NCBI GenBank assembly: GCA_015501595.1
Contig: JADNRX010000009.1
Location: forward strand, 124,001 to 188,000
Direction of reading: 5' to 3'
DNA: 64,000 nucleotides
Origin: Hymenopellis radicata
Taxonomy: Eukaryota > Basidiomycota > Agaricomycetes > Agaricales > Physalacriaceae
Positions 39,271 through 50,049 of the stretch are shown here, in pieces. Positions within the stretch are counted from its first letter, which is position 1; every line of letters begins with the position of its first letter. Position numbers and translations under genes: made by a program. Under the pieces are notes generated by a model. It was not told the origin of the DNA, made no database searches, and saw only the letters and a program-made list of their open reading frames with translations.

Positions 39271-41606
<2,336 letters not shown>

Positions 41607-48393: not shown

Positions 48394-50049
48394 TCAAAAT
48401 CCCGGAAGGGCAACACGGCGGTCCTCAAGATACTCCAAAATAGTCAACTTCTTCAAGTTTCCCGCTGGCTCCCATGTATCCATCTCCGCAGGATAATCCT
48501 CCCACGAAACCAGAAACTCGTACGACCCGTCCGCTGCCTGTCGATGGTCCTTTATACAATCCACGATATAATCACCCAACGGATCCCACCTCCGAATCCT
48601 CACATCCTTCAAACCCCTTCGCATATCCCAAGCCTTGGGAAAGACACGTCCCGGCGGACTCCTTCTCCCAAACCGTTCGCGAAGCCTCATACCGCGCGCC
48701 TTGTCGAGTCCTTTTATCAAAGGCAGAACCACTCTAGTATACTTGTCCGTTTCGCAGAGCATGTGTTCGATGTCAGCCAACTCCATCTCCCGATGCTCTG
48801 CATCAACACCATCGAATTGGTACCCGAGACGCGCAAAGTCATTGGGCAGGGACTTTGTGATCTTGCGCAGCGCAGCCTGGAAGATATCCCCCTCTTTCTT
48901 CTCCGCGTCGAGAATGCGCTCTCCGAACATCTTGTACAGACCAGATCGAGCTCCTGGACCGAGAACGACGAAATCCCAAGACGAATAGGGGAAGAGCTTG
49001 GTGTAACCGAGGTTTAAGATGAGTTGGTACGAGTTGAAAGCGCCAAATCCCCAAAAGTTGTCTTTACAGAAATCGAAGATATCGTCTAGGTAGACGTTCG
49101 GTGCTTGGAGCTTGTTCAAGAGCACGTCGCCCTCCATCATCTCTTGGACGATATCGAGGTGATGCCTCCACATATCGACGGTGTTAATGCCTTTGCGCTT
49201 CTGATGAGAGAACCCGTTCTGCTTTTGGTACGCGGCCGAGAACAAGCTTGTGCCATTTTTCTTCGCAGCGTCCAGAACCTTCTCATACTTCCTCCGCTTA
49301 TAGGCAGCCCAAGTCAACGACGGAATCTCCTCAACCAACAACTCCCAAGTCGCGATTTTGTTGAACGTGGTGAAGAGCAGGGTGCGGAAGAGTAGCTCTC
49401 TCGGTTCCTGTGAGCCTTTCTCGATAACCTCGGTGATGAGGTACTGAGACGTTCGGTCGAGGACGCGGAATGTGTTGCAAAAGAACTCTCTTTGGAGGAG
49501 CTTGTTGGTTGTCCATCTACGGCGTAAGTCCATAACTGTTCACGCGTACGAAAAGGTCACTTACGGCGCGGGTAATCCCAACCATCGTCTCTTGGTAATG
49601 CCGAGCCGTTCCGCACAAAGCCAGAGGAAGATGTTGTAGACTATAGTCGGTCTAAGCGTCTGTCCTCTAACAGTGATGGGGTCGTGTAATGGTGCTCTGA
49701 CAGCAGAAAGGAAGGGGATGGATCCGGACGAGCCTGGCGTTTCTGCGTCGTCGGGTTCAAGCCCAGCGAGTGATTCTTGGAGTTGACGCTGATTTAGATC
49801 TTCTTCCTCTTCTACGTCTGTTTCCCCTTCCGCGTCAACGTCACTATCAGTCAACGGGGAGAGTGGTCCTAGTAAGTCGATGTTCAGATTGGCAGGGATA
49901 GTAATGTCTGGTATTGGGAATTCGAATGGAGTGCCTTCTAGGCTATAACCCTTTCGTGTTTGGCGAGCCGTGCTAGCTCGGGAGTATGGGAATGGGGAAT
50001 ATAGAGTGGAGGAAGAGTCCGAGCCTTCGCGTTCGCGAATAGGCGCCAT
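48394..50049 (-). CDS. HMUDK-type helical domain protein with C-terminal chromodomain
   Basis: ATG at 50049 (MAPIREREGSDSSSTLYSPF). The first 150 residues are acidic and Ser-rich (GETDVEEEEDLNQRQ). One intron (donor GTAAGTGACC, acceptor GCCGTAG) joins PAP to WTTNKLLQREFF, followed by FRVLDRTSQYLITEVIEKG, ELLFRTLLFTTFNKIATWEL, LVEEIPSLTW, EVMEGD-type acidic helices, DIFDFCKDNFWGFGAFNSYQ, PYSSWDFVVLGPGARSGLYK and DIEHMLCETDKYTRVVLP. That helical pattern (F.RVLD..SQY, LLFRTLLFT.FNK..TWE, W.FVVLGPGAR.G) is what I recall for the 5-hmdU DNA kinase helical / aGPT-PPlase family, first described from phage hypermodified-base pathways and also found in fungi. The last 55 residues, DYIVDCIKDHR, YEFLVSWEDYPAEMDTWEP, form a chromodomain. 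Likely nuclear and chromatin-bound; base-modification activity is inference. Confidence 0.75.

Follow-up and report, generated by a model that had tools for sequence, protein, structure and literature searches.

The 64,000-nucleotide stretch of the Hymenopellis radicata genome analyzed here (contig JADNRX010000009.1, positions 124,001 to 188,000; hereafter the window) carries on its reverse strand, at 48394..50049, a gene for a 535-amino acid protein which, judged by its sequence, is a member of the HMUDK_hel family fused to a chromodomain with a complete aromatic cage. This fusion brings base hypermodification of the phage style together with chromatin guided by histone methylation, two rarely combined subjects. 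The family, its role in phages and the presence of both domains in the database annotation of these fungal proteins are already known. What is new here is the conservation of the fusion in 22 of 22 fungal-type proteins, their grouping in a single fungal clade, the core common to fungi, bacteria and phages, the predicted placement of the domain in the fold class of PUGT, QNG1 and DNA glycosylases, and the thymidylate synthase (TS)-like and CapP-like setting of the prokaryote relatives. The literature searched yielded no account of an HMUDK_hel-chromodomain protein in fungi, and a prior mention is possible. Iyer and colleagues are said to have predicted in 2013 that such systems reach basidiomycetes.

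Domain assignment and gene structure

A Pfam scan of the exon-2 open reading frame (ORF) identified HMUDK_hel (PF18723) at 264.4 bits (E-value 1.5e-78, cut-off 25) and Chromo (PF00385) at 39 bits (cut-off 25.1), together with one third row below its own cut-off. Both domains had been proposed in a first-pass annotation of the window, which had also placed the gene, its strand and three short motifs within it correctly; the profile scores and the Y-W-Y cage bear these proposals out. A profile search of the whole genome scored the HMUDK_hel domain of the window at 265.6 bits, with an end point at C1295:172712 (window position 48712), and the protein matches phrog_2396 with an E-value of 3.5e-39. 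Exon 1 alone gave no Pfam match, and no P-loop kinase domain was found in the protein, as HMUDK_hel and Chromo are the only exon-2 domains over cut-off. The exon-2 scan returned no row for ADDT (PF18724) at E-values up to 1, the Pfam scan of the protein returned none for a chromoshadow domain, and there were no NCBIfam models for P0001 (the annotated protein described below) or P0029.

The coding region, all of whose features lie on the reverse strand, consists of exon 1 (49565..50049; residues 1-161 and part of 162), a 48-nt GT-AG intron (49517..49564) and exon 2 (48394..49516), which encodes the remainder of the HMUDK_hel domain, a linker, the chromodomain and the stop codon. Joining the exons in frame gives a spliced translation with a single terminal stop that is identical over 100% of its length to the annotated H. 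radicata protein BDZ89DRAFT_1057990 (P0001), an identity that anchors both the gene model and the species in an outside record. A second in-frame acceptor is possible and would give a product of 526 amino acids; the match to the annotated protein supports the 535-amino acid form. The HMUDK_hel domain extends over about residues 134-430 (48712..49650), its exon-2 part being defined by PF18723 and its start by the alignment and the predicted structure. Since the alignment puts this start at about residues 125-135, within exon 1, the intron interrupts the domain. The chromodomain occupies residues 476-529 (48415..48576), with its cage at Y478, W500 and Y503. An acidic N-terminus, also described in the first-pass annotation, is present at residues 66-95 (49765..49854), where 12 of 30 residues are D or E and one is K or R; it lies partly within a predicted disordered part, as residues 1-76 have a predicted local distance difference test score (pLDDT) below 50 in the predicted structure.

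A common core in fungi, bacteria and phages

Conserved residues of the HMUDK_hel domain include those of core motif 1, NTFRVLDRTSQ (49444..49476; N176, R179, D182 and Q186), a glycine-rich hairpin, VVLGPGA, that appears helix-hairpin-helix (HhH)-like by eye (residues 345-351; 48949..48969), and core motif 2, DIEHMLCETDKYTR (residues 410-423; 48733..48774; D410, C416, E417, K420 and R423). We compared them in an alignment of 104 rows (A2), which excludes P0021, P0022, P0041 and 20 of 80 locus ORFs, and in a phage set of 31 rows (30 viral loci and gp50 of phage PaMx11). N176, R179, D182, G350, C416, E417 and K420 are identical in all 104 and all 31 rows, a count to be read knowing that the prokaryote and viral loci were fetched by patterns holding parts of the core motifs; 47 proteins found by word search and gp50 were not fetched in this way. 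A further six residues (Q186, T218, Q326, Y333, D410 and R423) are identical in 104/104 A2 rows and in 22 to 29 of the phage rows, Q186 being kept in 23, D410 in 28 and R423 in 29. Beside the CExDK motif, residues 412-413 (48763-48768) are EH in 20/20 fungal rows, in contrast to QN in 83/84 bacterial or metagenome rows; phage rows are divided among QN (14), EH (6) and others (11). It is possible that this difference is a specificity switch.

The predicted structure also places the domain with phage members of the family, including SP10 F8WQ30 (E-value 6.4e-12) and phiW-14 C9DG43 (E-value 3.9e-8), with modest template modeling scores by query length of 0.37-0.49. The profile search and the fold prediction, both proposed as checks in the first-pass annotation and named there as possible grounds for refutation, did not contradict the family. 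Beyond the family, structural comparison with VIA-align points with moderate strength to a fold class shared by QNG1, HhH DNA glycosylases and PUGT, an amino acid:DNA transferase; the absence of other folds from the VIA-align list carries no weight against those folds. The enzymes of this class act by holding a base or by flipping it from the DNA. The chromodomain has structural matches to those of CDYL2, HP1 and CBX proteins.

The fusion recurs in mushroom-forming fungi

With the spliced protein as query, a database search recovered at least 47 proteins from 7,995 scored candidates, comprising 22 fungal-type proteins and 25 with HMUDK_hel only. Sixteen of the 22 bear a fungal species name, from Hymenopellis (2), Mucidula, Armillaria, Desarmillaria, Dendrothele, Hohenbuehelia, Asterophora, Lyophyllum, Moniliophthora, Mycena (3), Agaricus, Chiua and Imleria, and the other six, though unnamed, share the architecture. 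A precomputed Chromo domain is present in 20 of the 22, the remaining two (Mycena) being named chromo domain proteins, and the three cage positions are aromatic in all 22, so that the fusion is not a one-off. It is found in Agaricales (Hymenopellis, and Agaricus including the cultivated Agaricus bisporus) and in Boletales (Chiua, Imleria). A second search with an alignment of the 22 (A4) yielded 44 proteins among the matches listed, none of them new.

Within the H. radicata genome, the profile search gave seven HMUDK_hel matches at six places. The window gene has a 97% identical copy on C1259. A second HMUDK_hel-chromodomain gene lies about 16 kb away, outside the window and on the opposite strand (C1295:188903-189988, +), with 46% protein identity to the window gene; P0009, a relative of this second gene, has a W-W-W chromodomain cage. 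Relatives of the second type, at 91-95% DNA identity, occur on C165 (95%), C850 (92%; split between frames) and C990 (91%), the last of which could represent an allele or else a third gene. The six places need not equal six genes, as some are probably haplotype copies in this 75-Mb, 1405-contig assembly. Ratios of nonsynonymous to synonymous substitution rates (Ka/Ks), computed on exon-2 frames that include a few intron codons, are 0.20-0.26 between the two gene types, with Ks saturated, 0.27 for the window gene against its own copy (9 nonsynonymous and 9 synonymous differences), 0.05-0.18 among full-length second-type copies and 0.14-0.38 for second-type pairs that include the broken C850 copy. 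Small as these numbers are, they suggest that the genes are under constraint.

Relatives in phages, plasmids and prokaryote genomes

Among 50,697 phage records, 429 hold a relative, all below 60% identity, and the best 20 listed are at 26.6-33.6%. The tie to phage thymine hypermodification noted in the first-pass annotation is evident in PaMx11, whose gene order is gp46 (ADDT), gp49 (P-loop kinase-like), gp50 (HMUDK_hel) and gp51 (TS): gp50 lies between the kinase-like and TS genes, four genes from ADDT. With phmmer at E-values up to 1e-3, 80 viral loci contained gp49-like kinases in 25 cases, gp46-like ADDT in 16 and gp51-like TS in 44. PaMx11 gp49 (L192:19218-19787) is labelled 'terminase small subunit' yet is P-loop kinase-like, and three Klebsiella phage matches (H3, H4 and H7) have 'terminase small subunit' genes under HMUDK_hel matches; these labels are likely misannotations. 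Relatives of P0029 are present in 21 of 72,556 plasmid records; among the 15 listed, the usual label is nucleotide kinase domain-containing protein, and one is called putative DNA base hypermodification protein.

Prokaryote genomes yielded at least 564 confirmed relatives among at least 589 pattern matches, and we analyzed the best 80 of these (L019-L098; 30-38% identity in the best segments), some of them cut by contig ends, from Actinomycetota, Planctomycetota, Chloroflexota, Bacteroidota, Cyanobacteriota and others. The same phmmer search found gp49-like and gp46-like matches in none of these 80 loci and gp51-like matches in 17; their members therefore lack a recognizable ADDT nearby. Within 5 kb, the HMUDK_hel genes are often grouped with genes for TS-like proteins (59 loci), M78 peptidases (58), Xre helix-turn-helix (HTH) proteins (57) and MazG (52) or MazG_C; another variant has ThsB-type TIR (16), SLOG (10) and Nmad2 (16), and a second thymidylate-synthase group (16) and DCD-like proteins (7) also occur. 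A thymidylate-kinase-like P-loop ORF adjoins the HMUDK_hel gene in five loci (L051, L056, L065, L080 and L094) and is a possible counterpart of the phage 5-hydroxymethyldeoxyuridine (5-hmdU) kinase.

A Pfam scan of the neighbors, using two TS-like representatives and one from every other group, gave 18.4 bits to Thymidylat_synt, under the cut-off, for one TS-like protein and no match for the other. The TS-like group has an invariant Cys in 33/33 aligned rows, and among the best 120 of 3,096 hits listed for it, the NCBI-named rows are all called thymidylate synthase. In PADLOC, the M78 representative matched capP (E-value 2.5e-15) and the TIR representative ThsB (2.2e-44), and the HMUDK_hel, TS-like and MazG representatives matched no model. 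aGPT-Pplase is listed among predicted, unvalidated defence domains in the DefensePredictor report (PMC13092281). Overall, the prokaryote loci look like an uncharacterized, regulated nucleotide or base-modification conflict system.

A proposed single gain of ambiguous source

A quick IQ-TREE analysis of 134 rows (20 of the 22 fungal, 30 of the 80 viral loci and 84 bacterial or metagenome) over 335 columns, rooted at the midpoint, places the 20 fungal rows in one clade (Shimodaira-Hasegawa-like approximate likelihood ratio test, SH-aLRT, 98). The sister of this clade is ambiguous, being either long-branched phage rows (L106, L113) or bacterial rows, with a warning from the tool that long branches meet. 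As the deepest splits involve the long-branched phage rows, the donor cannot be named. The term 'phage-type' used in the first-pass annotation is accordingly not supported, as prokaryote relatives are about as similar to the fungal protein as the best phage ones. A phage origin in the narrow sense is neither supported nor refuted, and 6 of the 31 phage rows carry the fungal EH signature.

Candidate partners in the fungal genome

Searches of the H. radicata genome found no match to the kinase model PF18748, whose cut-off even PaMx11 gp49 fails to reach, none to ADDT PF18724, no TS-like partner (best E-value 9.6 in a single-protein search) and no MazG_C partner; a positive control worked in only one of the four, and the negatives are weak. 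No prokaryote-type gene cluster was seen beside the window gene, and of eight window ORFs scanned, the sole match over cut-off was an Hsp70 piece at 40100-41026. A survey for TET/JBP genes, suggested in the first-pass annotation, did turn up three TET/JBP-like places, all of them below the Pfam cut-off (26 bits against 34.9; rescoring of two single ORFs gave 21.8 and 26.8 bits). They lie at C391:74374, C1362:47510 and C699:30915 (L016-L018); by eye, L016 and L018 show an HxD and a later H...R. DNA_methylase matches occur at eight genome places, some with stops. The TET/JBP-like and DNA_methylase places could supply a substrate. Thymidylate synthase is matched on C641 and a second time, by several separate pieces, at C135:8180-9059.

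Possible functions of the fusion protein

That the fungus modifies a DNA base or erases such a modification, as the first-pass annotation hinted, remains an inference. As a whole, we tentatively read the protein as a chromatin-targeted HMUDK_hel member that acts on a flipped base and was gained from bacteria or phages. Of the two domains evident in the sequence, the chromodomain would bring the protein to H3K9- or H3K27-methylated chromatin, and the HMUDK_hel domain, with the fold class predicted above, would flip out a pyrimidine, probably one modified at the 5-position, on which the invariant N/R/D and D/C-E-K-R residues would act. A modifying or processing step is favored over classical base excision because the family's neighbors are thymidylate-synthase-type and a DNA-base transferase gives the best match in fold. 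The gene would have entered mushroom-forming fungi in a single event, its source being a bacterial or phage gene set for base modification or conflict, and purifying selection would have kept it since.

An alternative to which we assign a low though appreciable probability is that the domain is a non-catalytic, base-flipping reader of DNA or of a modified base, its phage counterpart being the helical part of the 5-hmdU kinase, which may serve likewise. The 637-amino acid SP10 5-hmdU DNA kinase does contain an HMUDK_hel domain by fold match, where it might help the kinase bind DNA; a 5-hmdU-type kinase was not found in the fungal genome, a weak test; and a second reader domain beside the chromodomain would fit a chromatin adaptor. 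Against this, the polar N, R, D, C, E and K are identical across fungi, bacteria and phages, which in our judgement is more than DNA binding alone usually preserves.

It is rather unlikely that the protein is an eraser, removing a modified pyrimidine (for example, a TET/JBP-oxidized one) from heterochromatin by glycosylase-like excision and so starting base-excision repair, though it would then represent a candidate DNA demethylase of a kind new to fungi. The fold class includes such enzymes, in which a catalytic Asp is kept 17-19 residues past the hairpin. The corresponding column is acidic in 87/104 rows but Ala in the window protein (position 376 in this alignment), and the family's neighbors are thymidylate-synthase-type enzymes. 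Exon 2 also has no HhH-GPD row at E-values up to 1, a search in which HMMER filters drop most weak rows. A full HhH-GPD glycosylase assignment was therefore set aside and is considered here only as a rival. That the protein acts on free modified nucleotides, as the crystallization of QNG1 with queuosine 5'-monophosphate might suggest, with a separate role for the chromodomain, is improbable given the cage-complete chromodomain in every fungal-type protein, which speaks for action on chromatin.

The chromatin-targeted reading admits a bolder form, which we regard as unlikely: mushroom heterochromatic DNA would contain an elaborated pyrimidine, built on a TET/JBP-oxidized base and written by this chromodomain-guided relative of the DNA-hypermodification enzymes of phages and bacteria. 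If true, this would be a fungal nucleus with base hypermodification positioned by a histone mark.

Comparison with known systems

The closest counterparts are the phage HMUDK_hel/aGPT-PPlase clade 1 proteins (PF18723, phrog_2396; SP10 5-hmdU DNA kinase, PaMx11 gp50), which have the same Pfam family, fold and N-R-D and C-E-K core, whereas the fungal protein adds a chromodomain, lacks a kinase domain and has EH where QN is commoner. Bacterial HMUDK_hel proteins from the TS-like/MazG/Xre-HTH/CapP-like loci have the invariant residues in common with it, but are found in gene clusters and lack the chromodomain to which the fungal protein is fused. Likeness to ADDT (PF18724; PaMx11 gp46/PUGT, PDB 8z2n) does not extend to sequence, with no PF18724 row and a profile comparison to gp46 that gave no match (probability 4.7%), and the overall fold is similar to that of QNG1/DUF2419 (PF10343) and HhH-GPD glycosylases in VIA-align at 6-15% identity among the matches listed, neither family having a row in the exon-2 Pfam scan. 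Finally, the Y-W-Y-cage chromodomain resembles those of HP1/CDYL-type proteins; the fungal one is fused instead to a base-enzyme-type domain, with no chromoshadow row.
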